17,809 bases of DNA, taken from assembly GCA_026692885.1 (NCBI GenBank), contig JAPLNJ010000218.1, forward strand, positions 1 to 17,809. Direction: 5' to 3'. The notes under the pieces are model-generated. The model had not been told where the DNA came from. It saw nothing but the letters and a program-made list of their open reading frames with translations, and searched no databases. The DNA comes from Planctomycetota bacterium. GTDB lineage: Bacteria; Planctomycetota; Planctomycetia; Pirellulales; Pirellulaceae. The translations under genes and the position numbers were made by a program. Shown one piece after another: positions 1 through 15,316 of this stretch (within the stretch, counting starts at the first letter, position 1; each line of letters starts with the position of its first letter).

Positions 1-138
1 CCCGACCAGATGCTCACGCGGACCAAGCTTCGCGAAACACTGGGCGTCAAGAACGAGCGACTGGGCGCGGTCCTGGACACGCTGGAACGCGCTGGCCGAA
101 TCCGTCGCACGCCCGGCGGTTGGCAACGTGTCGACTGA
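1..138 (+). CDS. C-terminal end of a winged-helix-like protein (partial)
   Basis: The frame is open from base 1 and stops with TGA at 136-138, leaving the last 45 residues of a protein that begins outside the window. The tail has the pattern of a small winged helix: TKLRETLGVKNERLG, then LDTLERAGRIRRT, then a Gly-Gly-Trp turn. Such domains often close replication helicase/primase proteins or DNA-binding regulators. The CHC2 zinc-finger gene 104 bases downstream on the same strand fits a replication or mobile-element setting, but the catalytic part is not in view, so the function is inference only. A strong hairpin follows 12 bases after the stop. Confidence 0.5.
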   Translation, partial: PDQMLTRTKLRETLGVKNERLGAVLDTLERAGRIRRTPGGWQRVD

Positions 139-150
139 CGACGAGCCGAT

Positions 151-190
151 CGTTCCCGTTCCCTCTCTAGAGAAAGGAGGGAACGGAACG
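151..190 (+). terminator. Strong hairpin after the partial gene; terminator-like, no T-run
   Basis: CGTTCC (151-156) and GTTCCCTC (158-165) pair with GAGGGAAC (177-184) and GGAACG (185-190), giving 14 base pairs with one bulged C at 157 and an 11-base loop. No T tract follows, so a classical intrinsic terminator is not supported. The loop and 3' arm contain a good Shine-Dalgarno core (AAAGGAGGG, 173-181), but no start codon lies at the right distance behind it. Confidence 0.4.
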
Positions 191-242
191 GTCTGCAACG
201 CGTCCTTCGGCCGCGATTCTCCCGCACGTCAGAGGAACCACC

Positions 243-557
243 ATGCCCGGCATCGACTTCGACCGCTTACGCCGCGAGATCACGATGGTGGAAGTTCTGA
301 ACCTGCTCGGCTTCCACCCCACGCAGCGACGGGGCGACCAATGGCACGGACCTTGCCCCGTGCATGGCTCGACATCAGCACGCAGCCGCACCTTCTCCGT
401 GAACGTCGCCTTGGGCCGTTATCATTGCCACAAGTGCCGCAGCCGAGGCCACCAGTTGGAATTGTGGGCCGCCGTGCTCAAGCAGCCACTGCATCCCGCC
501 ACTATCCGTCTCTGCCACGCCCTTGGCCGAGAAGTCCCCTGGATGCACCGCTGGTGA
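243..557 (+). CDS. Stand-alone CHC2 zinc-finger protein (DnaG-primase-type finger)
   Basis: A 104-residue protein. CPVH at about residues 38-41 and CHKC at about 60-63 form a C-x2-H...C-x2-C finger, with FSVN and RYHCHKCRSRGHQLEL between and after. This is the layout of the CHC2 zinc-binding domain at the N-terminus of DnaG-type primases, which helps recognise template DNA. No Toprim catalytic domain follows: the frame stops after WMHRW, so it is either a free zinc-finger protein or a remnant of a larger primase. The ATG at 243 is preceded by GAGGAA (232-237), five bases upstream. An overlapping longer ORF in another frame (128-838) is Pro/Arg-rich and judged a shadow. Confidence 0.7.
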   Translation: MPGIDFDRLRREITMVEVLNLLGFHPTQRRGDQWHGPCPVHGSTSARSRTFSVNVALGRYHCHKCRSRGHQLELWAAVLKQPLHPATIRLCHALGREVPWMHRW

Positions 558-914
558 CTGTCTGCTACGCCCGCAGATCAGCACCGCGGCCCACCCTGTT
601 CACATCCAGAACAGAAGAGAGGAGGCACCGGTACTTCCGCCGCCGGTCAACAACCCGTCTTCCCGCGATTACCTCGATCGCATGCCCATCGATTATCGTG
701 CCCGCTCTCAGCCCGCAGTTGGCACATTGGGCCGAATCAAACCGTTCGCCTTGTGGCCATAGGCGGCTCAGAGAAGCCCGCCCGAGAAGCACTGAGCGAC
801 CGTCGAAGAACATTGACGCCGCCCACCCGAGTCGCTAGATTGCGCCCCTGACGGGGCTGTCCTTGACCCGACCGGAGTGGCCGGCATGCACCGCACGCTC
901 ACGTCCGTGTAGGG
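558..914. other. Stretch without a convincing gene
   Basis: No plus-strand frame here has a plausible start, Shine-Dalgarno site and protein-like composition together. On the minus strand, 813-565 encodes 82 residues with CANC and, 30 residues on, RRRKYRC. This resembles the first half of a zinc ribbon, but the second cysteine pair is out of frame, so a relic is possible and not established. A short hairpin GCCCC-TGAC-GGGGC lies at 845-858. Confidence 0.4.
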
Positions 915-944
915 TTGATTGCACGGCCCCTCGCTGGTGATAAA
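915..944 (+). promoter_or_regulatory. Promoter-like pair at the front of the cassette array
   Basis: TTGATT (915-920) and GATAAA (939-944) lie 18 bases apart, each matching four of six sigma-70 consensus positions, and point into the array. The -10-like element is one arm of the palindrome GATAAA-GT-TTTATC (939-952), which could serve as an operator. In integrons the common promoter driving the cassettes lies at this end of the array. The assignment rests on consensus and position only. Confidence 0.3.
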
Positions 945-1022
945 GTTTTATCGAGCCGGTGATAATCCCGCTGATAAGCGGCATATCACCGAGTCAGCAC
1001 GGGTTAATTATTGATGTTCGGC
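933..1022 (+). promoter_or_regulatory. Leading edge of the array: nested palindromes and GTT core (attI-like or diverged attC)
   Basis: CGGTGATA (957-964) pairs with TATCACCG (984-991) around an inner hairpin CCGCT-GATA-AGCGG (968-981). In competition, GCTG and GTGATA (933-942) can pair with TATCAC (984-989) and CAGC (995-998). After a more AT-rich spacer comes GTTCGGCG (1016-1023), whose reverse complement ends the first cassette (1560-1567). This GTT is therefore the 5' junction of cassette 1. The site lacks the 90-base layout of the other attC sites, so it may be an attI-like primary site or a decayed attC. Confidence 0.35.
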
Positions 1023-1036
1023 GATGGAGGATGCCG

Positions 1037-1555
1037 ATGCCGGTAAGTTACTTGCCGTTGATCTTGCCGGCGCTGCTAATCGGCGTGCCCTTGCTCCTTC
1101 TTACGAAGGGACGAAAGCCGTTCCTCGGTGCGGCGGCCGTGTCAGTCTCAATCGTAGTGCTACTTTTCCTTTGGGTCTACGTTCCCGGGTGGGTTCTGAT
1201 GTGGAAAGCCAATCGCGGCGATCCCGCAGCCATGTATGAATTGGCGCGATGGACCGAAAAGCATGATGAGGAGATCGGAAATTTGATTCTCTGGCCGTTC
1301 TCACCGGACGTACAGGGCGGCTACGCTTGGCTTGAAAAAGCCGCGGCCGTGGACTATCCGCCCGCCGTCTATGCTGTAGGGGTCCGACTGAAGTACGGGG
1401 ACCATGTGCCGCGCCCGCCCGGATGGAAAGGTCCACCAGGGGGACATTTTCCCCAGCCTGAGCGGGGTCAAGTATTGATTGACAAGGCAATCCATCTTGG
1501 ATACCGACCCTCCATCGAGGAGGGGTATTTCTACTGGCACCAGTACCGAAAGTGA
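1037..1555 (+). CDS. Cassette 1: small membrane protein with Sel1-like repeats
   Basis: A 172-residue product. Two hydrophobic helices (about residues 4-22 and 30-52) are followed by a soluble part with Sel1-like/TPR-like signatures: GDPAAMYELARW, AWLEKAAAVDYPPAVYAVGV and LIDKAIHLGY. Sel1-like repeats are alpha-helical hairpins that usually mediate protein contacts, so a membrane-tethered scaffold is a reasonable guess. The ATG at 1037 is chosen because GGAGG (1026-1030) sits six bases upstream. A GTG at 959 would extend the frame through the palindromic leading edge and the R' core, which is unlikely. The stop lies six bases before the R'' of the next attC site. No specific family was recognised. 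Confidence 0.7.
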   Translation: MPVSYLPLILPALLIGVPLLLLTKGRKPFLGAAAVSVSIVVLLFLWVYVPGWVLMWKANRGDPAAMYELARWTEKHDEEIGNLILWPFSPDVQGGYAWLEKAAAVDYPPAVYAVGVRLKYGDHVPRPPGWKGPPGGHFPQPERGQVLIDKAIHLGYRPSIEEGYFYWHQYRK

Positions 1556-1560
1556 GCTGC

Positions 1561-1651
1561 GCCGAACCAAGCGGTGAACGGGAGCCGCCGATCACGCGGG
1601 TTTTGAAGTTATAGCGTTTTGGCGGCGGCCCCGTTACCGCTGCCGTTACTG
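1561..1651 (+). repeat. attC-like site 1 (91 bp)
   Basis: R'' GCCGAAC (1561-1567), spacer CAA, L'' GCGGT-[G]-AACGGG-[A]-GCCGCC (1571-1589), loop, L' GGCGGC (1621-1626), three extra bases, CCCGTT (1630-1635) and ACCGC (1636-1640), spacer TGCC, R' GTTACTG (1645-1651). The bracketed G (1576) is extrahelical, and there are extra bases at the A (1583) position. Unpaired spacers and extrahelical bases in one arm are hallmarks of integron attC sites, which recombine as folded single strands. Confidence 0.75.
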
Positions 1652-1672
1652 TGCCAAGGCCGGGAAGCATCG

Positions 1673-1906
1673 ATGCAACGGAACATCGGGATGACCCTAA
1701 TGGCTCTCTCCATCATCGCGGCTGCTTTTCTCCTCGTAACCGGCAACCTCGGCTCCGAAAGGGTGACGGGAACCACCCGCGGCCAGGTCTCGTTCGTCAC
1801 TTGGGATCTGACAGATGTGGCGTACTTCCCGAACTGGTGGGTCGTGGTGCCTGTTGGCAGCTCCTTTTTGGTAGGGCTGTTTTGCGCGGTACGGGGCACA
1901 CGGTAA
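1673..1906 (+). CDS. Cassette 2: small two-helix membrane protein
   Basis: A 77-residue product with two hydrophobic helices (about residues 5-23 and 54-72) joined by a polar loop containing GTTRGQVSFVTWDLTDVAYF. This loop is probably outside the membrane on one face. No family was recognised. The ATG at 1673 is preferred over upstream in-frame codons because those fall within the attC palindrome, and because GGGAAG (1662-1667) is a usable Shine-Dalgarno site five bases upstream. The ORF starts 21 bases after R'. About 146 bases after the stop, to the next R'' at 2053, contain no gene that I can support. Confidence 0.6.
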   Translation: MQRNIGMTLMALSIIAAAFLLVTGNLGSERVTGTTRGQVSFVTWDLTDVAYFPNWWVVVPVGSSFLVGLFCAVRGTR

Positions 1907-2052
1907 CCGGATGCTGCCCAGGGCCGCTGAAGAACGAACGCGGCACGGTGCAGTGAATCGACAACCCAGCGGCGGCGGTCGTGCTGATGGTGGGACGGCT
2001 GGCCCCGCGATATACTGACGGCGAAAATCGTGCGGGTCGCGCGCGACGGGCC

Positions 2053-2142
2053 CAGTAACTACCCGATGAACGCGAGGCGTCCGCAGGGTCTGAATTTGCG
2101 GCGTGGTCCGTGAGGACGCCCGCGTTATCGTTACCGTTCTGC
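2053..2142 (+). repeat. attC-like site 2 (90 bp)
   Basis: R'' CAGTAAC (2053-2059), spacer TACC, L'' CGAT-[G]-AACGCG-[A]-GGCGTCC (2064-2082), loop 2083-2113, L' GGACGCC-CGCGTT-ATCG (2114-2130), spacer TTACC, R' GTTCTGC (2136-2142). All three helices are fully paired, yet their sequences differ from sites 1 and 3, and the extrahelical G (2068) and A (2075) sit at the same places. R'' is the exact reverse complement of the R' of site 1, as expected for the two ends of one cassette. Confidence 0.8.
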
Positions 2143-2146
2143 TCAA

Positions 2147-2884
2147 ATGAGAACAATCGTCGCCGCACTCCTTGCCGTGTTCCTTGCCCAGCGGCCTCTG
2201 GTCTCCGGAGAGCTGGGGTTTCGGCTAATGGTCTCCGGGAAACTCGCCGAAAAACTGGAAGCGGATACGACGCTCTCCCTTTGGTGCCCCTGTAATGCCC
2301 CTTCAGCCTGGATTTCCGTCGGTTTAACTGAGCTGCCCGTGGATTTGCCTTTTGAAAGGTTCCATAAACAGACTTGGCACGTAGCTTTTTACAGTAAGAA
2401 GTCAGGCCCTTACTTCTCCGTGACCTTAAATCACGATCTGTTTGACCGTGCCAGGACTGTCAATATCCTGCTGGATTCGCCGGAACCGCGTCTGCACGCG
2501 GATTTCGGATGGTCAGGCGGTCTCTTTCTTTTTTACAGTCCGAATATCACAAAGCGAATGTTCTACCGCGACTTGCCCCGCTGGGACGCAACTAAGGGAC
2601 GGATTGTGCAATCGCCGGCGCCCGTGGTGCTAGTGACAAGACTCCGCGATGGAGTCACGGTGTACAGCGGTGAGATGGGCGATTCATGTCGTGCGTCGAG
2701 ATGGTTCATTCAGCCTGGCGCTTTAGCCAGCAAGCTAGAAGACGGTGAGGCTTATCGAGCGTCGGTCAGATATGATTCCGGTGGGCTGTTCCCGCCAACG
2801 AATACGACATGCGATTTCACGTACCGCGCGTCATACCGCGACCCCAGCGAGGGCGGATCGGGCGGTGAAGAAGAGCAGAACTAA
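2147..2884 (+). CDS. Cassette 3: exported protein of unknown function
   Basis: A 245-residue product. It has a short signal peptide (MRTIVAALLAVFLAQRPLVS, residues 1-20, cleavage near residue 20-21), then a soluble, mostly beta-type domain rich in Tyr, Phe and Trp. Four cysteines remain after the signal (CPC near 47-49, GDSC, TTCDF), compatible with disulfides. The C-terminus is acidic and low in complexity. The start is ATG 2147, five bases after R', with no recognisable Shine-Dalgarno site, so it may be translated weakly or from a leaderless message. The stop TAA lies in the spacer of the next attC site, and the last codons CAG-AAC form its R''. No family was recognised. Confidence 0.7.
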   Translation: MRTIVAALLAVFLAQRPLVSGELGFRLMVSGKLAEKLEADTTLSLWCPCNAPSAWISVGLTELPVDLPFERFHKQTWHVAFYSKKSGPYFSVTLNHDLFDRARTVNILLDSPEPRLHADFGWSGGLFLFYSPNITKRMFYRDLPRWDATKGRIVQSPAPVVLVTRLRDGVTVYSGEMGDSCRASRWFIQPGALASKLEDGEAYRASVRYDSGGLFPPTNTTCDFTYRASYRDPSEGGSGGEEEQN

Positions 2885-2966
2885 AGCGGTGAACCCGAGC
2901 GGCGGATCGGGTCAGCAATGAAGTCAACGGTACTTGGCCGCCGCCGGGTTACCGCTACCGTTCTGG
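2875..2966 (+). repeat. attC-like site 3 (92 bp)
   Basis: R'' GCAGAAC (2875-2881), spacer TAAA, L'' GCGGT-[G]-AACCCG-[A]-GCGGCGG (2886-2905), loop, L' CCGCCGC-CGGGTT-ACCGC (2938-2955), spacer TACC, R' GTTCTGG (2960-2966). Compared with site 1, the outer helix is the same while the middle and inner helices changed on both strands together (compensatory change). GAGCAGAAC (2873-2881) is the exact nine-base reverse complement of GTTCTGCTC at the start of the same cassette (2136-2144). Confidence 0.8.
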
Positions 2967-2981
2967 CCGTGGAGTTCATCC

Positions 2982-3560
2982 GTGACCGCGACATCGAACA
3001 ATCGCGTCCGCGAGATCGAATCCTGGTTCCACGACCACGACGATGGCGAATTTGTGGTGGCCAGTTCCGAAGCTGGGTCCAGCATCGTGGGCGATTCTTC
3101 TGCCGCGCGAACGGTTATCTACACGACCAAGTTCCATTGCCTCAACCACAACCTCCGTGCCCTTGATGTTGCGCACCCCGTCATGATCGTCGGCCGATAC
3201 GGCCTTCCCGTGTCCGCCGACCTGATCCACCTTGATGCGCTGCCGGTCGGTACTCGATGCTACTTCGTGGGCGACGCCGATCCGCCGGACATCCTCGCGT
3301 TCGCTTGGCTGCGCGAGCATGCTGCGATCGGCTGGCTGGGCGTCAACGACAAAATGCTGACTCAAAGCCTGGCCTCGGATCTCACCTCGCTAGAAATCGC
3401 GATGTCCGACGCGGAGAAACTGACGATACGCTCGTTGCCCGACTTATGCCCGGATTTTCGCGATCTGCTGGGGCCGTACTGCTCCGGGACGCTTGACCGG
3501 GGATTCAAGATCGAACTCGAGGCGGCTATGATCTGTCTTGGTTCCCGGCCCAAAGACTGA
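2982..3560 (+). CDS. Cassette 4: unknown soluble protein, possibly Toprim-like
   Basis: A 192-residue cytoplasmic product with no signal peptide or membrane helix. The central segment RCYFVGDADPPDILAFAWLR has the strand-D-x-D-helix look of Toprim-type metal-binding folds, but I see no second acidic motif that I can assign with certainty, so this is only a suggestion. The N-terminal half contains YTTKFHCLNHNLRALDVAHP and the C-terminus ends in a helix around FKIELEAAMI. GTG 2982 is chosen because GGAG (2971-2974) lies seven bases upstream and because the longer TTG start at 2934 would place the protein start inside the attC palindrome. The stop is followed four bases later by GGCCAGAAT, the cassette end. 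Confidence 0.65.
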   Translation: MTATSNNRVREIESWFHDHDDGEFVVASSEAGSSIVGDSSAARTVIYTTKFHCLNHNLRALDVAHPVMIVGRYGLPVSADLIHLDALPVGTRCYFVGDADPPDILAFAWLREHAAIGWLGVNDKMLTQSLASDLTSLEIAMSDAEKLTIRSLPDLCPDFRDLLGPYCSGTLDRGFKIELEAAMICLGSRPKD

Positions 3561-3566
3561 GGTAGG

Positions 3567-3761
3567 CCAGAATCGGGTAGCCGGGGGGGTTCCCCGCACA
3601 GCCTGCCACCCGGCGTCCATTTCCCCGCCCCGTGTTGCGTGCCGAGGCCGCGGGGTAAAATGGGGCCTGTCCGGCTGCAACGGGGTGCACGCGAGGCGGC
3701 GATTGCGTGCGAGATGATGGTTGGGTCACACAAGCCGCCCGCATGACCCGTAACATTCGGC
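3567..3761 (+). repeat. Enlarged attC-like site 4 (about 195 bp)
   Basis: R'' is CCAGAAT (3567-3573); GGCCAGAAT (3565-3573) matches the complement of the cassette's start (2960-2968) in eight of nine bases. The body holds a G/C hairpin CGGGG...CCCCG (3582-3596), a promoter-like pair and a second palindrome in which GGCGGC pairs with GCCGCC and, further out, GGGGT pairs with ACCCG (3746-3750). R' is ATTCGGC (3755-3761), one base off GTT, and matches GCCGAAC at 4935-4941. It shares long stretches with sites 7 and 8. Less canonical than sites 1-3, since no spacer follows R''. Confidence 0.55.
3635..3661 (+). promoter_or_regulatory. Promoter-like TTGCGT / TAAAAT inside site 4
   Basis: TTGCGT (3635-3640) and TAAAAT (3656-3661) are 15 bases apart. 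The same spacing and the block CCGCGGGGTARAATGG recur at 6398-6424 and 7261-7287. Conservation in three copies suggests a functional element. A 15-base spacer is short for a sigma-70 promoter, so this is tentative. Confidence 0.3.
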
Positions 3762-3811
3762 TAGTCATCCGTGCGTCCTCCAGTACGCGTCGCCCGTTGT
3801 GCCACTCGATA

Positions 3812-4890
3812 ATGAAATATGTCAACATACTGCTGATGGCCACTGTTGCCTGTGCGTTAAGCAGTGCAATCCCGTGTCTTGGAATCGCTGGCGAGCCCGA
3901 AGAAGCCCTTGATTTGACCGAGGGTGGTGCCGGGCAAACACGGCATGCGAACCGTCCCGTCCCCGCGGCCTTTGGCTGGATGTTGCGGCAGCAGGCGGAC
4001 GACGGGAGTTGGAACTACTTGCCTCCCCCCCCGGTGTGGCCTCGGCGGGCGCCCAGGCTGAGGCCACAGCATTGGTGCTCACCGCCTTGGCCAGTTACGG
4101 TCATACGCCCAACGGCACCGGGCCTTTCGCGAAGGCGATGACCAAGGGTCTGACTTTCCTGCTCGCCCAGCAGAGAAGTAGCCCACACAGCAACGATTTT
4201 TCTGGCAATGGGGCCGCAGTGAACGCTCACGCTTCCGCGACTTTGGCCGTGGCCGCGATTTACGGATTGACGGGACAGGCGAATCTGCGCGAACCCCTAC
4301 GGCGCGCCGTGGACCTCATACTTGCCCGGCAAGACGGGAAGAGTGGCAGTTGGGCGGCGGCTGGCCAGGACGTCAATCTTCCGACAACGTATCGTCAGCT
4401 TGCGGCGTTGTTCGAGGCCCAACCTGTCCTCTCGGAGCCGGAATGGCACGACGCGGCAAAGAAAGCGGCTCTGTATCTGTCGAAAACGCGTCCGCCCGAG
4501 GGGACGTCGCTCCACGATCTGACGGCCGTCGCCATGCACATGATCTGTCAAATGTGCGTTCTCGGCCAGCGTGGGGACGGGGCATGGAAACCGGTAATTC
4601 AGCTAATCGTGAATCAGGGGCCTGCCAAGGACGACGCAGTGTACACCTACTATGCCACCCAGGCCGTGTTCGACTGGGAGGGCGACTCTTGGCGGACATG
4701 GGATCAGTGGCTTCGCCAGCTTCGCCGGCAACAGGTTGAATCGCAAATCGCGGAAGGTGAGAACGCGGGCAGCTGGCCACCGGGAGCAGGCAGATCGCTG
4801 GATGACGACCGTTTGTACCGCACTGTGCTAAACTCGATGACTTTGCAAGTGCACACACGTCACATGCATCGGTACTTTCAATTTCGGTAG
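3812..4890 (+). pseudogene. Cassette 5: exported alpha-toroid (prenyltransferase/squalene-cyclase-like repeat) protein, frameshifted at a C8 run
   Basis: Two overlapping frames make one protein of about 359 residues. The first frame gives a signal peptide (MKYVNILLMATVACALSSAI, cleavage near residue 27) and the first repeat motif AAFGWMLRQQADDGSWNY. The rest lies in another frame: LTALASYGH, KGLTFLLAQQ, ATLAVAAIYGLTG, AVDLILARQDGKSGSWAAA, ATQAVFDWEGDSW. These helices with Q-x-DGSW-type turns resemble the alpha-alpha toroid of the prenyltransferase/squalene-oxidase repeat family, which is common in planctomycetes; catalysis is not shown. The frames meet at eight C's (4025-4032); adding one C restores a continuous reading. 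This could be decay, phase-variable slippage or a sequencing error. ATG 3812 follows R' by 50 bases and has no clear Shine-Dalgarno site. Confidence 0.65.
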
Positions 4891-4934
4891 CCATATTGTC
4901 GAAGGACTTGCGTACGAGTCGTGGCTGCCCAACC

Positions 4935-5025
4935 GCCGAACAAGGCGTCGGATCAGAGCCGCGATCTGGTCTGGCAGAATGGATGCGTTGGCTCGTCGCG
5001 GCCTGGTAAACGCAATTCGTTACGT
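4935..5025 (+). repeat. attC-like site 5 (91 bp)
   Basis: R'' GCCGAAC (4935-4941), spacer AAG, L'' GCGT-[CGG]-ATCAG-[AG]-CCGCG (4945-4963), loop, L' CGCGG-[C]-CTGGT-[AA]-ACGC (4997-5013), spacer AATTC, R' GTTACGT (5019-5025). Length and layout match sites 1-3 although the sequence is different. The loop carries CGGATCAGA...TCTGGTCTG, paired if G-U is allowed; it is related to site 6. Confidence 0.7.
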
Positions 5026-5107
5026 GCCCTGCGAGATTCCAAGAGCAAGGGCTGATGCCATGACAGAGTGGACGACATAACTTCGTCACGTGGAGAGCAA
5101 CGCGGCC

Positions 5108-5830
5108 ATGAAACTCACGAAACCACATGCTCTGATGGCCATGATTGTGGGTGGCTGCCTGCTGCCTGTTACGACCCTCAGCGCGGAATCGGCAAAGGGC
5201 AATTCGAAGCGAGCCAAGAAGATTGAGACGCTTATCGACAAACTCGCGTCGGAAAACGATCGCCCGCAGGCCGTACGGGACAAGACCGGTCGTCGAACGA
5301 CGGTGTTCCCGTCCGGATGGTCCGAGGAAAAGCAAGACGCCGTGTTCCGGGCGGCAGACGAACTCGTGAAGATGGGCGTGCGGGCATTTCCGCAACTCAT
5401 CGAACACTTCGACGACGATCGGTACAGCTATTCGCACGAGGCACTAAACGCGGCTCCAGGCGACCGCGTCTACTACAACGAAAACGTTGGCCGCCACTGC
5501 CGGAAGATTGTCCGCGAGCAGCTGCACAAATACGAGATATGGGGTGAGCCCCTCAGCGGCTTTGGCCCAACTCGCTGGGGCCCCCCCGGATTCGACAACA
5601 ATGATGCCGCGCGCCGATGGTGGGAACAGAACAAGGACAAGCCGCTCTGGAGACTGCAAGCCGATGCCCTGCAATGGGCGATTGACGTGGAAACGGAGTA
5701 CCGCGAGCAGAAGCACGATGAACGCGGGCTTGATGCCATTCGGGCCGACAAGGAGTTGCTTCGTCGCCTCATCGAGACGGAGGAGGCTATTCCGACTGAC
5801 CTTCGGCGAAGCCGGATGCCCGACGAATGA
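5108..5830 (+). CDS. Cassette 6: exported protein of unknown function
   Basis: A 240-residue product with a clear signal peptide (MKLTKPHALMAMIVGGCLLP, cleavage probably after LSA, residue 26). A basic stretch then leads into a helical, charged domain: DAVFRAADELVKMGVRAFPQ, then HCRKIVREQLHKYEIWGEP, then DAARRWWEQNKDKPLWRLQA, then DALQWAIDVETEYREQK. The WW-E-x-NK segment resembles a motif seen in other exported planctomycete proteins, but I cannot name a family. ATG 5108 is preferred to GTG 5090 because GGAGAG (5092-5097) then sits ten bases upstream and the signal peptide starts at the N-terminus. The gene ends 27 bases before the R'' of site 6. Confidence 0.7.
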   Translation: MKLTKPHALMAMIVGGCLLPVTTLSAESAKGNSKRAKKIETLIDKLASENDRPQAVRDKTGRRTTVFPSGWSEEKQDAVFRAADELVKMGVRAFPQLIEHFDDDRYSYSHEALNAAPGDRVYYNENVGRHCRKIVREQLHKYEIWGEPLSGFGPTRWGPPGFDNNDAARRWWEQNKDKPLWRLQADALQWAIDVETEYREQKHDERGLDAIRADKELLRRLIETEEAIPTDLRRSRMPDE

Positions 5831-5857
5831 CGCGACGAATCCCGTGGTCGGTCCAGC

Positions 5858-5945
5858 ACGCAACAAAATGTCGGACCAGAGCGCGATCTGGTCCGGGGAG
5901 ATGGCGAGTTGATCGGCCGGGAGCCGGTCAAGATGGTCGCTCGGT
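5858..5945 (+). repeat. attC-like site 6 (88 bp, diverged)
   Basis: R'' ACGCAAC (5858-5864); GCACGCAAC (5856-5864) matches the complement of the cassette start GTTACGTGC in eight of nine bases. The 5' half is a relative of site 5 (GTCGGAYCAGAG then CGCGATCTGGTC). The inner stem CGGACCAGA (5872-5880) / TCTGGTCCG (5887-5895) is a perfect nine-base palindrome. The outer L'/L'' pairing is weak. R' GCTCGGT (5939-5945) departs from GTT by one base but pairs with CACCGA at the cassette end (6317-6322). Confidence 0.5.
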
Positions 5946-5959
5946 GGAGGGCTAAGCCG

Positions 5960-6331
5960 ATGCTCGGGCACGCGATCGGTTTCTTGGCGGCGTACATTGT
6001 CGGCACGGTGGCCATGATGTACGCGAACACGGCCTGGTTCGGACTCGGCGATGTCAAGTTCGGCACCGGTGGATGGGAGTTGTACTGGCCGCTGTGGGCC
6101 GGGGGGTACGCTCCTGTGGCTATCACTGCGGTGATTTCCGTCTGGCGCTCAGGCTTGCCGGAGGGGCCACAAGTTGCCCTCCTCTGGGGCTACCTGGTAG
6201 TCATTTTCACCTGCATGGAAGTGTCGTTCCTGCTGGACATCGATTGGCCGACAGTGCTGGCCGAGTGGGCGTTGCTGGCAGCGGTGTTCTTCGCGATTGC
6301 GAGAGCCTGGCGAGAGCACCGAATCGGGTAA
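5960..6331 (+). CDS. Cassette 7: four-helix membrane protein
   Basis: A 123-residue product with four predicted membrane helices (about residues 3-21, 41-61, 71-90 and 98-115) and short loops; the last residues AWREHRIG are basic and probably cytoplasmic. No conserved motif allows a functional assignment. ATG 5960 is chosen because GGAGG (5946-5950) lies nine bases upstream and because longer in-frame starts (5909, 5933) precede or overlap the R' core. The stop TAA is inside the next attC-like site, so removal or exchange of that site would alter the C-terminus. Confidence 0.65.
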   Translation: MLGHAIGFLAAYIVGTVAMMYANTAWFGLGDVKFGTGGWELYWPLWAGGYAPVAITAVISVWRSGLPEGPQVALLWGYLVVIFTCMEVSFLLDIDWPTVLAEWALLAAVFFAIARAWREHRIG

Positions 6332-6523
6332 TCGGGGCGGATTCTCACGCCCAGCCGCTACACCACCAAGCCGCGAGTCAATTTGCCCCGTCCTGTGTTG
6401 CGTGCCGGGACCGCGGGGTAAAATGGGACGTGTCCGGCTGCACCAGTGCAGCGGAGCCGCCGGGCGGGCGCATGAAAAATGGGAGGTCACTTGGCGGCGG
6501 CCGGGTGACGGTGTTCGTTATGT
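6318..6523 (+). repeat. Enlarged attC-like site 7 (about 206 bp)
   Basis: R'' ACCGAAT (6318-6324) is followed by the block AATCGGGTA shared with sites 4 and 8, a weak hairpin (GGGCG...CGCCC), the promoter-like pair and then a second palindrome. In that palindrome AGCCGCC (6454-6461 region) pairs with GGCGGC (6493-6498), and CACC pairs with GGTG further out. R' is GTTATGT (6517-6523), a normal GTT core. The 5' and 3' outer arms do not pair with each other, so the site may be a hybrid of two attC types. Confidence 0.5.
6398..6424 (+). promoter_or_regulatory. Promoter-like TTGCGT / TAAAAT inside site 7
   Basis: TTGCGT (6398-6403), 15 bases, TAAAAT (6419-6424). It is identical in boxes and spacing to the copy at 3635-3661 and points at the cassette 8 gene. 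Confidence 0.3.
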
Positions 6524-6550
6524 GCGTGGATCTTCACGGGGGATCGAGAG

Positions 6551-7183
6551 ATGCGTTCGCTCGCATTGGCGGCTTTCGTGCTCGGAGCGACTCTACCGTC
6601 GTTTGCCAAAGACAAGCTCCCCGGCTTCGACTCGCCGGAAAAGGCATTTCATGCCTATTGCACGGGCGTCGTTTCCGTAGACTTCGACTTGATGCTCTCG
6701 TCGTTGACCTCCGAAGCGAAAGCCTACCACGTCGCCCTGTCTCTCTTCTCTGCCGCGTTTCTCTTCGGCCAAGACCCCGAGATGCAAAAGGTCTTCCGCG
6801 AACATGGCATCGAGCCGTCCTCAGATGATGGTGGTGATGGTCAGACAGAAAAGGCTGACGAAGATTCGCCGGATAGAGCGCTCGTGGAGGCGGTGTCGAA
6901 GATCAAGAACCCAGGCAAACTCATGAAACAGATCGCGGACAGGCACGAGAAACTGGCGAAACTGATGGCGAGCTCAGGCGATGCCCGGCCGGAATCGGCG
7001 CGACCGACCGCGAAAGAACTGCTTTCGTCCGTCACACTGGGCAAAATGGCCATGAAAAGGAACTCGGCCGTAGCGACCGTGACGGTGGCTGCACCCGCAA
7101 AGGACGTTTTCTCTACGATGCCCGAAAAGGTCAAGTTCCGCAAAATCAAGAGCCGGTGGTACTGTCACATCGATCCAAGATAG
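6551..7183 (+). CDS. Cassette 8: exported protein of unknown function
   Basis: A 210-residue product. A signal peptide (MRSLALAAFVLGATLPSFA, cleavage after residue 19) is followed by GFDSPEKAFHAYCTGVVSVD. This is the opening helix pattern seen in many exported planctomycete proteins with small alpha/beta (NTF2-like) domains; the fold is not proven. A charged, low-complexity linker (about residues 93-110, Asp/Gly/Glu-rich) and a Lys-rich helix follow. The end, KVKFRKIKSRWYCHIDPR, looks like a final beta-hairpin. The ATG at 6551 lies 28 bases after R', with a G-rich stretch (6538-6542) upstream. The stop is three bases before the R'' region of site 8. Confidence 0.65.
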   Translation: MRSLALAAFVLGATLPSFAKDKLPGFDSPEKAFHAYCTGVVSVDFDLMLSSLTSEAKAYHVALSLFSAAFLFGQDPEMQKVFREHGIEPSSDDGGDGQTEKADEDSPDRALVEAVSKIKNPGKLMKQIADRHEKLAKLMASSGDARPESARPTAKELLSSVTLGKMAMKRNSAVATVTVAAPAKDVFSTMPEKVKFRKIKSRWYCHIDPR

Positions 7184-7188
7184 CCGGC

Positions 7189-7370
7189 ACACAATCGGGT
7201 AGCCGGGGCGGGTTTCCCCGCCCCAGCCCCGGCGCCCCCGCCGGTCGCCTGTCCCCTGTGTCGTGTGGCGAGACCGCGGGGTAGAATGGAGCCGGATCAG
7301 ATACCGGGGTGCACGCGAGGCGGCGATCGCGTGCGGTCAACGGCGCGGGCCGCGCAACTCGGTCTTTACG
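7189..7370 (+). repeat. Enlarged attC-like site 8 (about 180 bp)
   Basis: GCACACAAT (7187-7195) matches the complement of the cassette start GTTATGTGC in seven of nine bases. The site contains the best hairpin of this family, GGGGCGGG (7205-7212) / CCCGCCCC (7217-7224) with a TTTC loop. It also has a promoter-like pair and the palindrome GCACGCGA...TCGCGTGC near 7312-7335. The block GGGGTGCACGCGAGGCGGCG is shared with site 4. The R' is poorly defined: GGTCTT (7361-7366) is one mismatch from GTTCTT. Confidence 0.45.
7261..7287 (+). promoter_or_regulatory. Promoter-like TCGTGT / TAGAAT inside site 8
   Basis: TCGTGT (7261-7266), 15 bases, TAGAAT (7282-7287). This is the third and most diverged copy of the element, upstream of the cassette 9 gene. 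Confidence 0.25.
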
Positions 7371-7389
7371 TGGTCGGCGGAGAATAGCG

Positions 7390-8310
7390 GTGGCTGCCAG
7401 CTCTGCTCATGACGATTTAGCCACTCGCAGGGCGATTGTCTTGGCCCTCGGTGTCCAATTCCTCTGTGTCGGCTGCGATCGTACGAAGACGTTAACCGCG
7501 GCTGACAGCCTGGATGGTGCCGTGTGTCCCTTCAGCATCTATTGGCCCCCGCGAGATCCGCAGGACAGACTCCCGGCATCGGCCAAGCCGCTGCTCCGCG
7601 GGAGTTTGGCTCTCGACGCGAAGCAGGCGGCACGGGGCGAAGCAGAGGTTCGGCTAGTGGTCACAATTGCGCGTCCGTCGGAGGAGACAGATCGTCAGTT
7701 TTGGAATTCGGAATTGGCCTTCGCCGACATTCCGTGGATGGATGAAGTCCGAGTGTGGGACGCAGACGCGAAGTGGCTTTGGCCCAACCTTCCGTACCTG
7801 TTGCGTCTGCCCGGCCAGGAACGAATTGAACGGTACGGTGGCACCGATCCGGTGAAACACGTGGACAATGATTTCGCTGCCGTGTTGATCCGCAAGTACG
7901 ACGCGCACGGCAAAGCGGAGACGTTCGAGACCAAGGACTCGCCGTTGGTGTCTGCAGAGTGGCACGCGGAAGGGATGTCGAAGACGGACCTGCAAACCGT
8001 CTCGCATGTCGCGAAATCCGATCCGTTCTTGCTGCACCTCGGCGCCGACAGCGGCCCAGCCAGCGGGCAAGTGAAGGTCTGGCTGATCTATGCCGATTTT
8101 CTCGGTGCGCGGCCGCCCCGCACATGGCCCAAGGAACGCGAATGGGCAGGCGGCATTTTGGCCTACTTTGAAATCGAATGGGAGACCTCGCCCGGCCACG
8201 ATTGCCGGGGGATCATCCGGCAGAAGAGGCCCGAGGAGGGAACGAGATTCAAGTGGGCCGAGTGGGCGCCGGAGACGGCCCAGGTCCGCCTGTCGGATTT
8301 CGGGAAGTGA
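7390..8310 (+). CDS. Cassette 9: putative lipoprotein of unknown function
   Basis: A 306-residue product. The N-terminus RRAIVLALGVQFLCVGC has a basic n-region, a hydrophobic core and a cysteine preceded by V-G, resembling a lipoprotein signal with an imperfect lipobox. The mature part is rich in Trp and acidic residues. It contains LRGSLALDAKQAARGEAEVR, which looks like a beta-rich domain, and VKVWLIYADFLGARPPRTWP; no family was recognised. GTG 7390 is chosen because GGAGA (7379-7383) lies six bases upstream; the longer ATG at 7309 would read through the attC palindrome as an Arg-rich stretch. It is the last plus-strand gene before the convergent minus-strand block. Confidence 0.65.
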   Translation: MAASSAHDDLATRRAIVLALGVQFLCVGCDRTKTLTAADSLDGAVCPFSIYWPPRDPQDRLPASAKPLLRGSLALDAKQAARGEAEVRLVVTIARPSEETDRQFWNSELAFADIPWMDEVRVWDADAKWLWPNLPYLLRLPGQERIERYGGTDPVKHVDNDFAAVLIRKYDAHGKAETFETKDSPLVSAEWHAEGMSKTDLQTVSHVAKSDPFLLHLGADSGPASGQVKVWLIYADFLGARPPRTWPKEREWAGGILAYFEIEWETSPGHDCRGIIRQKRPEEGTRFKWAEWAPETAQVRLSDFGK

Positions 8311-8320
8311 GCGACTTTCT

Positions 8321-8427
8321 CGAAGAACTAACGTCCGTCGAAGTTTGGGGCATACGGCCATTCGCCCACGTTTTCAAACAGGTGTTGCTTGTCCGGTTGT
8401 GTGCCCCGTTCGCCTACTTGGTTTTGT
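8321..8427 (+). repeat. Possible terminal attC-like site 9
   Basis: CGAAGAAC (8321-8328) is a candidate R''. CGAA-GTTT-GGGGCA (8339-8352) pairs with TGCCCC-G-TTCG (8402-8412), and GTTTTGT (8421-8427) could be R'. Length (107 bp) and position fit, but the arms next to the cores do not pair, and the 3' half overlaps the end of the minus-strand gene that stops at 8374. Confidence 0.25.
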
Positions 8428-8923
8428 CGTAACCATCGAGGCAAGGACTACGGCTAGGACACAGATCCCGACGATAAGGGCATCGAGAACTACAACTCCG
8501 ACTCGATATCGAATCGGTACAACGACGGCATTCTTTGGTACCACGTAAATTGAGCAGTTTCGGCCGTGAGTGACGGGGGTCGCCCACCCGGCAAAGAACA
8601 CAACACGCCCTGCAAGGCGCACTGACACCAATGGTTGTTCGTCGCCTCTGTTCCAAGGCACGGCTATGGCATCATATACGTGAAGATCAACTGCTTGCGT
8701 CCTTCCGTTCGTGTCCAGGTAATCTCGCAAGCAGGCGTGAAAGCCATCTTGTGTGGCGTCTGATTCGTTTCGTATGCGACGAGTGGTGAACCGTCCGCCG
8801 TCTCGACCGATACTGCAGTAGTATCGCGATGGTGGCGATCGCCACGAGAATCGTGGCAATGGAGAAACGTGGCGGAATGAGCCGCGCCCGTACTAACGCT
8901 ACTATTTCCAAAACAACAGCCAT
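8374..8923 (-). pseudogene. Small two-helix membrane protein, frameshifted
   Basis: Two minus-strand frames join into one product of about 180 residues. The first (from ATG 8923) gives a cytoplasmic stub and a helix, PRFSIATILVAIATIAILLQ, a typical planctomycete N-terminal anchor, and then degenerates into Arg/His-rich sequence. The second frame continues with a soluble domain (RNESDATQDGFHACLRDYLD, VDLHVYDAIAVPWNRGD, LVSVRLAGRVVFFAGW) and a last helix, VGVVVLDALIVGICVLAVVL. The frames must cross between about 8780 and 8815. Function unknown. The start is 27 bases after the WD40 gene stop, so it is probably the last gene of the same transcript. A sequencing error cannot be excluded. Confidence 0.55.
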
Positions 8924-8950
8924 TTCAGCACCGCCGGTCCGCGATTCGCT

Positions 8951-11176
8951 TCAGGGCAGGGTCGGTAGGCGCGCGATGGTCAGTGTTTGTCCGGCGGCGC
9001 TGGGAATGACCGCCAGCAAGCTGGCATCCGGCGTAACGGCCAACGCCTTGATGTACTGGGCATCGCCCGCAGCGACGTGGACCACGGGTTCGCCGTTGGC
9101 CAAGCTCCAGAGCGTTGCCGTGCCGCGCCCACCGGAGATGAGTCCTCGCCCGTGAGGCAAGAACTCCAGGGACCATTGGAGGTCGCGCTCGGCAGTCAGC
9201 GTCGTGAGCAAGTGGGCGGTCGATGTGTCCCAGATGCGGATGTTGGTCCCTTGGCAAATGGCCAACTGCTTGCCGTCCCGTGAGAACGCTGCCACCTGGC
9301 CTGAGCCGCGGCCGAGTTCCTGATCGCGGACAACACTTGCCTCCCGCAGGTTGACTTGCACCAGACGGCGCCCGTCGGTGGCCCAGGCCTGATCGCCCTG
9401 GCCAGAGAGACAAATGCTCAGCACCGCCCGCTGGAAGACCGGCAATCGCTGTAAATTGGGCGTCGCAGGCTCGCCGTCGTGCCAGGCCAATTCGCCCGCG
9501 GCGCTGCCGCTGATGACCAGTGAAGTCTGCGCACCGGTTGCCAGGCTGGTCACGGGGCGTGCGTGGGCCGGCAAGGATGCAATTGCCTGCAAATGCCCGG
9601 CCTCGTCCACATCCCAGACCTGGATTACGCCGCGGTGTCCGCCGGCAATCAGGCGGTGACCATCGTTAGTGAAAGCCAGGCCCTGGATCTGCCCCAGGTC
9701 ATTGCGGCGAGACTCGGAATGCAGCGATTGCCCTGTGGTCGCATCCAAGACGACCACGCTGGCATCCAACTTGCCCGCCGCCAGATAACGCCCATTGGCT
9801 GCAAAGGCCAGGGACTGCACCGTCCAGCCCATGTTGGGAACTTGTTTGACGATTTCAGCCAGGCGCCCGGTCTTGGCCGGAGTCGCTACGGACTCCGGAT
9901 GTTCGCCTGCCGGTGGAGGGAAGCTCGGACGTGGCAAATCAACGTGGCTTCGCGGCGCGACCGAGGCCGGAGGGTCGCGCGACTCGACACCGGGCGACTC
10001 GCCGGAGTCGAGAGCGTCCGGCTCAGCACGCCCCGTGGCCGACATGCCCGGAACTGCGGGCTCGCCGCAGGGAACCTCGCCGTCGGCGTCGGGCACGGAA
10101 AAGAACGCCAGCAGTTCGCGCCGTTCGCCACGGGTGTAGTTTGGGGACTCGGCCGCATTGCCAGCGGCGGGGCCTACGAGGATTGCCCCATACAACGCGA
10201 CACCGCGCAGGCCGACTGCCAGACGGTCTTCCGGCTGTAAGGTTCCTTGCACGGTTCCTTGGGCTAGTTCCCAGGCCCTGCTTTCCAGCTCCCGTTTGGC
10301 TTCTTGCGCGAAACCACGGTAGGAGGGCACATGGACCAGGAACAGACAGCGGCCGGTGTGTAACTCGCAGTAGACCACGAACCGGCCCTCTGTTAAGGAA
10401 AAGACGCGGTCGCGGTCTGGCGTGAAATCCTCGGCACGCATGGCCTGCAGTGCCTGAGCGTACTTTTGGGCAAGTTCGGTTGCTGCCGGAGAGTTGCCCG
10501 TAGCGGCGCCGTTGGTGCCGGGCGTCAGGACTCGCATCTCGGCGGACTGCAGTTGGTGCTCGGCGGAAGCACGCGCGGGCGACTGCGGCCCGGCAGCGTG
10601 CTCCCGCGTTTGTCTCCAGCCGCTGACGAACGGGGGCGCCACCAGCGTCCAGACGGCTATTGAGGCGACCAGGAACACGTAGCCGCACACGCATCCGGTC
10701 AGGGCGTAGCCTCGTCCTGCCAAGCGACCTGCGGAACGCCGGATGCTCGCGAGCGCGAGATGCCCCGTGGCGATTGCCGCCGGCGAGGTGAGCAGTGAAA
10801 CTCCGCAAACGCATAAACCAAAGAACGACAGGATGCCCAGGACCAAGCTGCTGATCGCCAGCGCGGAAGTCTTCTGCATCGGAGATGACTGCCACGTTGT
10901 CGCCGACTGGCCAATCGCGGTTCCGTCGACCAGTGTGGCCGTCACGACTTCTTCGTTTGGCGGACCTGCCAACACAGCGGGCACGAAACGGGAAAAGCAA
11001 CCCTGGCATTCGACCTGTTCTCCGACCCGGCCCAATGGCAGGACGGGAATGAAGTACAGGGTAAACCAGCGTCTGTGAAGCAAATGGTAATACCCTTGCG
11101 AGGTGCGGCATCGCGGACAGACAAATACCCCGCTGGCTACAATCGAGGCAGTCGTCTTGTGGCCGAAGATGATCAT
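8951..11176 (-). CDS. Membrane protein: zinc ribbon + DUF4190-like helices + C-terminal WD40 repeats
   Basis: A 741-residue multidomain protein. Residues 1-60 form a zinc ribbon with CPRC (20-23) and CQGC (57-60) around RRWFTLYFIPVLPLGRVGEQ, a pattern known from small bacterial zinc-ribbon proteins. Residues about 99-182 match the DUF4190 type: two hydrophobic helices around GHLALASIRRSAGRLAGRG. A linker and a domain of unknown type (about 215-360) follow, then a Pro/Ser/Glu-rich stretch, and from about 440 to the end repeated WD40-like blades (LAFAANGRYLAAGKLDASVV, GVIQVWDVD, AAFSRDGKQLAICQGTNIRI, TATLWSLANGEPV). It is probably a membrane-anchored beta-propeller sensor or scaffold. The start at ATG 11176 lies 45 bases after the truncated LRR ORF, with only a weak Shine-Dalgarno site. 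Confidence 0.8.
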   Translation of the reverse strand: MIIFGHKTTASIVASGVFVCPRCRTSQGYYHLLHRRWFTLYFIPVLPLGRVGEQVECQGCFSRFVPAVLAGPPNEEVVTATLVDGTAIGQSATTWQSSPMQKTSALAISSLVLGILSFFGLCVCGVSLLTSPAAIATGHLALASIRRSAGRLAGRGYALTGCVCGYVFLVASIAVWTLVAPPFVSGWRQTREHAAGPQSPARASAEHQLQSAEMRVLTPGTNGAATGNSPAATELAQKYAQALQAMRAEDFTPDRDRVFSLTEGRFVVYCELHTGRCLFLVHVPSYRGFAQEAKRELESRAWELAQGTVQGTLQPEDRLAVGLRGVALYGAILVGPAAGNAAESPNYTRGERRELLAFFSVPDADGEVPCGEPAVPGMSATGRAEPDALDSGESPGVESRDPPASVAPRSHVDLPRPSFPPPAGEHPESVATPAKTGRLAEIVKQVPNMGWTVQSLAFAANGRYLAAGKLDASVVVLDATTGQSLHSESRRNDLGQIQGLAFTNDGHRLIAGGHRGVIQVWDVDEAGHLQAIASLPAHARPVTSLATGAQTSLVISGSAAGELAWHDGEPATPNLQRLPVFQRAVLSICLSGQGDQAWATDGRRLVQVNLREASVVRDQELGRGSGQVAAFSRDGKQLAICQGTNIRIWDTSTAHLLTTLTAERDLQWSLEFLPHGRGLISGGRGTATLWSLANGEPVVHVAAGDAQYIKALAVTPDASLLAVIPSAAGQTLTIARLPTLP

Positions 11177-11221
11177 GGCTCGACTCGATCAGGGTTGCGG
11201 AATGCGTCCGCTTCCGCAGGA

Positions 11222-11401
11222 TTAACGATCTTGCCTGCCAGCGGGCGGCCGCCGCATTGTACTGCCCAGCACCGCACGGTGACACTGCGGGAATTGGGAC
11301 CGCCGACGCATTGCGTCGAGATCGGCGGAAACGACGTGCCGCAGGCTGAACTGCAGCCAGCGGCGACGGCGGTGCGGCCATGCAGGCGGTTTGGTGGTCA
11401 C
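11222..11401 (-). pseudogene. Truncated seventh LRR paralogue (N-terminal fragment)
   Basis: From GTG 11401 the minus strand encodes MTTKPPAWPH then RRRRWLQFSLR, the same opening as the six LRR genes upstream. The frame then reads unrelated Arg-rich sequence to TAA at 11224-11222, 59 residues in all. The membrane helix and every leucine-rich repeat are missing. The start overlaps the stop of the preceding LRR gene in GTGA, so the coupling junction survived the truncation. It is best read as the remnant of a duplicate whose 3' part was lost. Confidence 0.6.
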
Positions 11402-12603
11402 GGAAGTCGGGCCTCGCCAGTGTCAGGAAACATCGCGAGCGGTTTCCAGGTGATACCTCTCGGGTCGAGTACCTCAAGGTTAGGCAATAGCTTCCGAAGC
11501 CGCATGACCCCATCGTCGCTGACACTGGTGTCTTCCAGCCACAGTTGCCTCAAGCTCATCAGGTCAGCGAGGTGAACCAATCCACCGTCAGTGACCTTAG
11601 TGCCCGCGAGGTCCAGCTCCTGTAGCTTGGTCAAGGTTCGAAGGTCCTCCAGCCCCGCGTCAGTGACCAACGTGTTGCTAACGTCCAGGTGTTCAAGTTC
11701 CGCGAACTCCCGGAGGTGAACCAGACCCGCATCGGTGACCTGTGTATTGCTGATGGCCAAGGACTTGAGCATCGTAAGTGTATTCAGGTGAATCAGTCCA
11801 GCATCGGTTACTCCGGTGCTGCAAAGGTCCAACTGTCGCAGCCGCGTCAAGGCCCGAATGTGAAGGAGTCCAGCGTCAGTAATCCGCGTGGTCCAGGGAA
11901 ACCACTTCTTACGCCGCGTCAACCGTTCCTGCTGTATCTGACCCCGGTGGCGGTAGTGAGGAGGGACAATCAGATCGTTGCCGAGAACCAAGACCTGGAG
12001 CCGAGTCCGGTCTTTCAATTGAACAAGTCCTGCATCCGTCACCTGAGTGTTGGCCAGAATCAGCCTTTCCAGGTTGACCAGCGGCTTCAAGTGCATGAGT
12101 CCCGCGTCGCTGACCGACGTGAGTCCGAGGTTCAAGCATTCAAGAGATCTCAGGCCTGTGAGATGGCGGAGGCCGTTGTCGGTGATGTGGGTGCCTGCAA
12201 GGCCAACGAATCGCAAGTCAGGGAGCCGAGCCAGCGGCACAAGGCTGCCATCGACACATCCAGGATTTTGACCGATTGGCCCCCACGCATGGAAGCCGTC
12301 CTTGAGGGTGAAAGTCAAGCCAGTGACGTCATCGAACAAGTTGTCTCTTGCCCAGCGAGGCACCAAGTCTTCAGGGATCAAGGCCCGCCATTTCGGCGGT
12401 ACTTCTGAGGGGTAATCCTGACGGACAGCGCCAATTCCCGAAAGTGCCTGAAGTGCCCCGTCCTGTTCCTTCGCCGCTTTGACCTTTGTGCCGAGCCAGC
12501 CGAAGCCGCAACCGAGCACCACCGTCAGTGCCAACATCGTCCGGAGGCTGAACTGCAGCCAGCGGCGTCGAGGCTTCGGGGGGATGGTCGGTGCGGTGGT
12601 CAT
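11398..12603 (-). CDS. Membrane-anchored LRR protein F (last intact paralogue)
   Basis: A 401-residue protein. KPRRRWLQFSLR is followed by one membrane helix (MLALTVVLGCGFGWLGTKVK), then a juxtamembrane domain with LVPRWARDNLFDDVTGL, then about eight leucine-rich repeats of the 24-residue (V/I)TDAGL type. Unlike its paralogues it has an extra stretch of about 30 basic residues (around IVPPHYRHRGQIQQERL) inside the third unit, and a different C-terminal cap (LEVLDPRGITWKPLAMFP) instead of the AELQKALP cap. ATG 12603 overlaps the preceding stop in ATGA; the longer start at 12714 would run into the neighbour's coding sequence. The repeats are predicted to lie outside the cytoplasm; ligand unknown. 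Confidence 0.8.
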   Translation of the reverse strand: MTTAPTIPPKPRRRWLQFSLRTMLALTVVLGCGFGWLGTKVKAAKEQDGALQALSGIGAVRQDYPSEVPPKWRALIPEDLVPRWARDNLFDDVTGLTFTLKDGFHAWGPIGQNPGCVDGSLVPLARLPDLRFVGLAGTHITDNGLRHLTGLRSLECLNLGLTSVSDAGLMHLKPLVNLERLILANTQVTDAGLVQLKDRTRLQVLVLGNDLIVPPHYRHRGQIQQERLTRRKKWFPWTTRITDAGLLHIRALTRLRQLDLCSTGVTDAGLIHLNTLTMLKSLAISNTQVTDAGLVHLREFAELEHLDVSNTLVTDAGLEDLRTLTKLQELDLAGTKVTDGGLVHLADLMSLRQLWLEDTSVSDDGVMRLRKLLPNLEVLDPRGITWKPLAMFPDTGEARLP

Positions 12604-15315: not shown

Positions 15316-15316
15316 G

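Follow-up and report, generated by a model that had tools for sequence, protein, structure and literature searches.

Integrons are established in the Planctomycetes (PMC2426708, PMC8618304), an attC model made specifically for this phylum is available (PMC8352920), and clusters of attC sites lacking an integrase (CALINs) are defined in PMC9024848. A further group of elements, the group IIC-attC introns, is found antisense to the cassettes at the R'' of the attC bottom strand, with TTGT/T as the published target; a truncated intron of this type in a cassette array is known, as are insertions in CALINs (PMC7923331). Here, we analyzed a stretch of 17,809 nt from a Planctomycetota bacterium of the Pirellulaceae (assembly GCA_026692885.1, contig JAPLNJ010000218.1). 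This stretch, called the window, appears to be the entire contig. Judged from its sequence, the window very probably holds an integron gene-cassette array of eight cassettes, with neither an integrase nor an attI in view. The system is genuine yet of an already known kind, and the array adds one more planctomycete case.

The closest relatives are the planctomycete sedentary chromosomal integrons with a TIGR02249 integrase. The window shares with them the attC length, the consensus, the strand asymmetry, the GTT core and the chain rule between R'' and R'. In contrast to them, no intI or clear attI was found in the contig, three of its attCs are interrupted, and the array is short. Like a CALIN, the window has at least two attCs and no integrase in sight (PMC9024848, PMC8618304), although a contig of 17.8 kb is too small to establish integrase absence here. 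The evidence in hand consists of canonical 90-bp attCs, the pairing of each cassette's own R'' and R', a cassette edge shared with another genome at G|TT, and intron-like 3' ends at R''.

Open reading frames (ORFs) 1 to 9 of the ORF list all lie on one strand. Palindromes with the R''-L''-L'-R' pattern were sought with our own script on a single strand of positions 851 to 8950. With minimum scores of 20, 24, 28, and 32, the scan returned 8, 3, 3, and 2 hits, respectively, and the means for 20 mononucleotide shuffles were 1.15, 0.3, 0, and 0. We also built a covariance model, R1, from attC candidates in 20 stretches around TIGR02249 integrases. These came from the family of genome G001 (the genome holding locus L001), which comprises 241 genomes and is our reference family. 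Of the 120 candidates gathered, 118 were retained, and these represent 17 of the 20 loci. Before alignment, we removed a single site of L048, two odd ones of L047 and every site whose pairwise score to a retained one exceeded 0.80; the final R1 holds 66 aligned attC sites, none of them from the window. R1 found six sites in the window, with E values between 1.7e-18 and 2.7e-5; each lies on the plus strand at an ORF junction. The listing to E 10 contained 15 matches, and the nine beyond these six had E values of 0.57 or more. As background, 18 other loci (86 kb) were searched, all R1 runs being confined to planctomycete sequence, and a match was obtained in one only (L111). The boundary and sites recognized in the window are as follows.

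1016..1024, plus strand: left boundary of the array and start of cassette 1, core G|TTCGGC; 8/9 bases match the R'' of cassette 1.
1561..1651, plus strand: attC 1, canonical, 91 bp; R1 E 1.7e-18.
2053..2142, plus strand: attC 2, canonical, 90 bp; R1 E 2.3e-11.
2875..2966, plus strand: attC 3, canonical, 92 bp, overlapping the last codons of ORF 3; R1 E 5.7e-15.
3565..3761, plus strand: attC 4, interrupted; R'' at 3565-3573, insert at about 3572-3676, inner L''-L'-R' at 3674-3761; R1 E 2.7e-5 for the inner part.
4935..5025, plus strand: attC 5, canonical, 91 bp; R1 E 1.2e-7.
5858..5947, plus strand: attC 6, decayed, R' core GCTCGGTG; R1 E 5.7; R'' and R' of cassette 6 match at 8/9 bases.
6316..6523, plus strand: attC 7, interrupted; R'' at 6316-6324, insert at about 6323-6443, inner part at 6437-6523; R1 E 2.1e-5 for the inner part.
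7187..7380, plus strand: attC 8, interrupted and decayed; R'' at 7187-7195 and L'' recognized by eye, L' and R' not, right end uncertain; no R1 match.

An earlier note on this DNA had described codirectional ORFs parted by imperfect palindromes of attC layout, and the ORF list, the palindrome scan and R1 bear this out. Its reading of the locus as an integron array, either a CALIN or part of a larger integron, was right and agrees with the independent covariance model. The note had also called for a covariance-model search as a check, and this recovered six sites at E values of 2.7e-5 or lower with a model built without the window. Its impression that the att types were undescribed did not hold; the window sites fit the consensus of planctomycete attCs beside intI and are ordinary 90-bp attCs. 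By eye, site 1 is nearly identical to attCs of four reference loci (L049, L050, L051, and L063). We considered the short hairpins at sites 5 and 6 as complete attCs of 58 to 60 bp and rejected this, since R1 gives about 90 bp for each.

It might be argued that the palindromes are transcription terminators or repetitive extragenic palindrome-like repeats between ordinary genes. GC-rich intergenic hairpins are generally known to be common, and the inserts in the interrupted sites do hold strong hairpins. However, the attC model matches one strand, its best reverse-strand match (site 3, the seventh-best match overall) having an E value of 0.57, and the R'' and R' sequences differ from cassette to cassette and pair with the cassette's own start, which is unexpected of terminators. 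On this evidence, we regard the terminator or repeat explanation as scarcely credible and retain the integron array.

In an integrated cassette, the bases after the starting G|TT are the missing half of the cassette's own attC and are complementary to its own R''. Across the eight cassettes of the window, own R'' and own start matched at 41 of 48 variable positions, compared with a permutation mean of 22.2. Two of 40,320 permutations reached 41; the second one scoring equal would be explained by cassettes 1 and 5, both of which carry TTCGGC. Individual matches were 8/9 for cassettes 1 and 4 and 7/9 for cassette 8. With cassette 7 excluded, 36 of 42 positions matched and 2 of 5,040 permutations were as good. 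With the start of cassette 7 shifted by one base, the values were 38 of 48 and 2 of 40,320, and the five cassettes with noninterrupted sites alone gave 25 of 30 (2 of 120 permutations). In the loci around real intI genes, 87 of 96 neighboring pairs follow the chain rule, with at least three of four variable bases matching. The R''/R' rule also lends support to the decayed site, which is the seventh, and to the incomplete eighth. The window thus presents tandem single-ORF cassettes with edges at G|TT and with each R'' matching its own 5' end, as in an integron.

Several results weigh against this reading. The decayed site at 5858-5945 was matched by R1 with an E value of 5.7 only, and R1 found neither site 8 nor a site 9 in the window. 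Two cores are off consensus, with ATT at site 4 and GCT at site 6 in place of GTT. For cassettes 4, 7, and 8 the R'' boxes, and for cassette 7 also the start, were set during the search for such matches, and the share of these three cassettes in the permutation test is therefore partly circular. No integrase-like stretch was found when the longest frames of 30 intI loci were searched against the window with tblastn (best E, 0.095), and upstream of 1016 there was neither an R1 match nor, by eye, a clear planctomycete attI motif. One of the 30 queries (L028) is a neighboring gene and not an integrase; it matched cassette 5, and the best E value given above is that of the other queries.

The extent of the array differs in part from what had been proposed. 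The proposed start was exact, position 1016 being the G in the first of the G|TT cores. Of the nine cassettes claimed, eight stand through boundary matching; the ninth has no partner by eye and no R1 attC. The proposed end at 8428 is unsupported, because site 8 has no recognizable L' or R' and R1 is blank behind ORF 9 (7390-8310). Stop codons had been described as lying at or inside R'', which applies to only some of the ORFs; in cassette 3 the stop comes directly after R'', cassette 7 reads across it, and cassette 8 ends a few bases short of it.

The missing integrase gene, already remarked on in the earlier note, was corroborated by the tblastn search and by NCBIfam, which detected no recombinase in the eight ORFs examined; the left 1 kb accounts for five of these. 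This absence is shown for the 17.8 kb of the contig only; with its two or more attC sites, the array may be a CALIN or a piece of a larger integron cut off by the contig end. In 11 of 20 reference loci, a first-cassette start matching the first R'' lies within 2 kb of intI, and in 7 of these 11 it reads ..AAACAA|GTT, which is probably attI. By eye, this motif is not present in the window, and by the motif the left boundary is unsupported as an attI. Neither position 1016 of the window nor position 4042 of L094, a locus of genome G112, has an R1 match at an E value of 0.01 or lower ahead of it within the stretches read. The left edge is compatible with a possible insertion at a nonclassical GTT site; attG and nonclassical insertion sites are mentioned in PMC12901181. 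A lone ORF for a CHC2-type zinc ribbon (DnaG-like; 243-557; Pfam E, 1.2e-8) adjoins the array.

A complete integron, with its integrase beyond the contig, would be the alternative to a CALIN. The contig appears to have only 17,809 bp, and intI is common in the reference family (122 of 241 genomes). In contrast, the 1,015 bp before the first core hold the zinc-ribbon ORF and no recombinase, and the window does not show ..AAACAA|GTT, which is read at 7 of 11 first-cassette starts close to intI. We consider a complete integron somewhat unlikely.

The edge of a cassette can be followed into a second genome. The protein of cassette 4, whose relatives number 56 listed proteins, including the window's own, is 64% identical over 191 amino acids to a protein of L094 in G112, which is probably Lignipirellula cremea (Pirellulaceae). 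In a global alignment of the window with L094, read in steps of 30 bases, DNA identity was 0.37, 0.53, 0.37, and 0.60 over the last four steps ahead of the core and 0.80 immediately past it. Homology between the two cassettes begins at the G|TT core. Like the window cassette, the L094 counterpart starts G|TTCTGGCC; it ends in an intact R'' (GGCCAGAAC), and a canonical attC comes next (R1 match at 4650-4739). One cassette of unknown function is thus common to the array described here and another planctomycete array.

The attCs of cassettes 4, 7, and 8 are interrupted by homologous inserts of about 105 to 125 nt, which extend from R'' to L'' and are alike throughout (mean column identity, 78%); the L''-side edge is inferred. 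The R''-proximal 45 to 61 nt of each insert resemble the 3' end of a group II intron, antisense to the cassettes. Local alignments to the G112 intron were scored against 300 mononucleotide shuffles each, with the following results.

3572..3616, minus strand: group II intron 3' end remnant at site 4 (part of domain V plus domain VI); z score of 7.4 for the alignment to the G112 intron.
6323..6367, minus strand: group II intron 3' end remnant at site 7; z score of 8.2 for the alignment to the G112 intron.
7194..7254, minus strand: group II intron 3' end remnant at site 8; z score of 10.5 for the alignment to the G112 intron.

The domain V/VI 3' end terminates in CTACCCGAT at sites 4 and 8 and in TTACCCGAT at site 7, and the junction beside R'' reads ..A|ATCGGGTA in all three inserts, like that of the L094 copies described below. 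Because these R''-proximal 45 to 61 nt match an intron 3' end, we call the inserts group II intron remnants, an assignment that for this end, judged from sequence likeness, is made with good confidence.

To follow the inserts in other genomes, a model of the three (R2) was used, which matches the site 8 insert by construction. In the first 22 comparison loci nothing convincing was found (best E, 0.3); across the reference family, R2 matched at 22 places in 11 of 241 genomes. Rfam, run on seven R2 loci, gave 22 matches to group II intron families. RF00029 coincided with 7 of the 11 R2 matches in these seven loci, and the R2 match in L096 lies near a match to RF02001. The R2 matches in L090 and L100 and the third one in L094 had no Rfam match at their place.

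L094 contains three R2-like copies, each between R'' and L'' and antisense to the cassettes. Two have a length of about 805 nt and are recognized by Rfam; one has about 230 nt and is Rfam silent. Their R''-side junctions are of the kind RYYYA|ATCGGGTAG, and the junctions on the other side are GGCGTAC|ACAA in two copies, with TCAA in the third. The two copies with ACAA are positioned at TTGT/T of the bottom strand, where ACAA reads TTGT; group IIC-attC introns have this as their published target (PMC7923331). The two 805-nt copies are too short for a full reverse transcriptase and no long ORF is listed in them, no profile search for reverse transcriptases having been made. The 230-nt copy is a deletion-like form. 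Several group II introns lie in or beside attC arrays on contig C1 of G112 (L089, L093, L094, and L095).

The half of the insert nearest L'' tells against the intron assignment. Compared with the 5' end of the G112 intron, it gave z scores of -0.4, 2.1, and 0.9 for sites 4, 7, and 8. A model of this half (R3) had a best E value of 0.25 in the 12 loci with R2 matches and a single marginal match (E, 0.004), with no att features around it, in 396 genomes of the order. On the window, Rfam reported nothing at the gathering score and nothing at an E value of 1 or lower for 3540-7420. A blastn search of the same half against the comparison loci gave a best E value of 0.51. The notion that this half is an intron 5' end is therefore unsupported, with z scores of -0.4 to 2.1 and no convincing match by blastn or R3. 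As a DNA pattern, the repeat shared by the inserts was found in neither the genome-contig nor the viral-contig collection.

The remnants share with the group IIC-attC introns of PMC7923331 the orientation antisense to the cassettes and the position at R'' of the attC bottom strand. They differ in measuring only about 105 to 125 nt and in having neither a reverse transcriptase nor a complete domain V, and their other half is unrecognizable; subclass IIC is only probable here. In our limited paper collection, no paper was found that joins group II introns, attC and planctomycetes, and none on miniature forms.

We also considered whether the three long sites could form a long attC type of their own instead of being attCs invaded by introns. 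The whole insert is common to the three sites at the 78% identity given above, and in the fold predicted for site 4 the insert is enclosed by paired R'' and R'. However, the R''-proximal 45 to 61 nt are like group II intron 3' ends that Rfam recognizes in relatives, the inserts have the same orientation and point of insertion as IIC-attC introns, and the cassette 4 relative in G112 carries a canonical attC instead. A distinct long attC type is improbable. A version of this idea, in which the core of a new attC type would be AAT/ATT, was weakened by the recognition of the intron 3' ends. With intron remnants as the preferred reading, the insertion would account for the length of site 4, which at about 197 bp is above the 57 to 141 bp quoted for attCs in PMC12901181, and for the present AAT in its R''. 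The ATT of the site 4 R' core is a change separate from the insertion.

The same short form occurs in the same position in three unrelated cassettes, which is the observation behind a further reading of the insert as a miniature, nonautonomous element derived from a group II intron that spread among the attCs of this array. We give this reading little credence. The site 4 insert is closest to that of site 7, and the site 4 L'' is closest to that of site 8.

From these observations, a sequence of events can be proposed. In accordance with established integron biology, the cassettes would each have been joined at G|TT by an integron integrase that folded the bottom strand of attC. The integrase that assembled the array would be encoded elsewhere, acting in trans, or would since have been lost. 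Group II introns, probably of the IIC-attC type, would later have split the attCs of cassettes 4, 7, and 8 at R'' and would then have shrunk to the present length of about 105 to 125 nt. Cassettes 4, 6, 7, and 8, whose sites are interrupted or mutated, probably have poor mobility. What is gained is a cassette array that is short and well resolved and comes from a planctomycete not in culture. The data suggest that group II introns attack attC in planctomycetes, and that the short scars could pass for a new att type.

The earlier note had described integrons as established in a few planctomycetes, which proved too narrow: a TIGR02249 integron integrase scored above the curated cutoff in 122 of the 241 genomes of the reference family, and 0 of 14 control genomes responded at the same E-value limit. 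attC sites (R1, E of 1e-6 or lower) were present in 213 of 241 genomes of the family, compared with 122 of 241 for the integrase. Cassettes are nearly universal in this family and often occur without a detected integrase; many of the genomes are draft-like, with numerous contigs. This suggests that integrons have a rich reservoir in the family of G001. In L051, L056, and perhaps L048, intI points the same way as the cassettes; 11 of 20 loci scored as divergent, the rest being unresolved. Many of the planctomycete TIGR02249 matches listed lie in frames of 450 to 780 amino acids, and the model covers 315 positions; such long frames suggest extensions or an upstream open frame. In comparisons with plasmids, no DNA match was found for window positions 1 to 8950 or for the site 7 region, and a comparison with phages, made for the site 7 region only, also gave no DNA match.

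The coding stretches of the array are given below. Pfam was run on ten cassette stretches, and none had a match over the cutoff.

1031..1555, plus strand: ORF of cassette 1, from the first in-frame ATG after the core; Sel1-like, Pfam E 0.22, below the cutoff.
1673..1906, plus strand: ORF of cassette 2, small and hydrophobic; DUF2177 below the cutoff.
2147..2884, plus strand: ORF of cassette 3, 245 amino acids; no Pfam match at an E value of 1 or lower.
2982..3560, plus strand: ORF of cassette 4, 192 amino acids; a relative is the first cassette of an array in G112.
3812..4890, plus strand: coding stretch of cassette 5 in two frames; pieces without a Pfam match.
5108..5830, plus strand: ORF of cassette 6; no Pfam family over the cutoff (scanned from 5090).
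5960..6331, plus strand: ORF of cassette 7, small and hydrophobic, running over R'' (ORF list; Pfam, scanned from 5909).
6551..7183, plus strand: ORF of cassette 8, 210 amino acids; 15 homologues and a weakly NTF2/cystatin-like model.
7390..8310, plus strand: ORF 9, of a widespread family; a candidate cassette at most.

The frame of cassette 5 changes at a run of C at about 4025-4033, owing either to an error in sequencing or to a genuine frameshift. The protein encoded by cassette 5 has a relative (28% identity; E, about 1e-17) that adjoins an integron integrase in L028/L090 of genome G064. The structure model of the cassette 8 protein has a mean pLDDT (predicted local distance difference test score) of 81. 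Its NTF2/cystatin-like structural matches are weak, and a search of the PDB gave no match at an E value of 0.001 or lower. Two homologues of cassette 8 occur in genome G193 (L013 and L014), with no R1 attC on either contig. Around these homologues, a different dispersed repeat, about 110 bp long and recognized by eye, separates small genes (L013, 6301-6420 and 8213-8330; L014, 3820-3890). The ORF 9 family comprises 336 proteins at an E value of 0.001 or lower, the window's own among them. It occurs in 15 of the 241 genomes of the reference family, and attC was present in the surrounding stretch for one only, L111; a member can therefore be a cassette but usually is not.

The right half of the window (8951-17610, minus strand) contains a WD40/DUF4190 gene and leucine-rich-repeat genes, two of which were scanned. 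A 48% relative of the WD40 protein is present in a metagenome-assembled genome of the Planctomycetaceae (locus L001, genome G001), which indicates a planctomycete. At 11398-17610 on the minus strand, the leucine-rich-repeat genes form tandem paralogues, most of which open with a PKPRRRWLQFSLR-type motif and a hydrophobic stretch.

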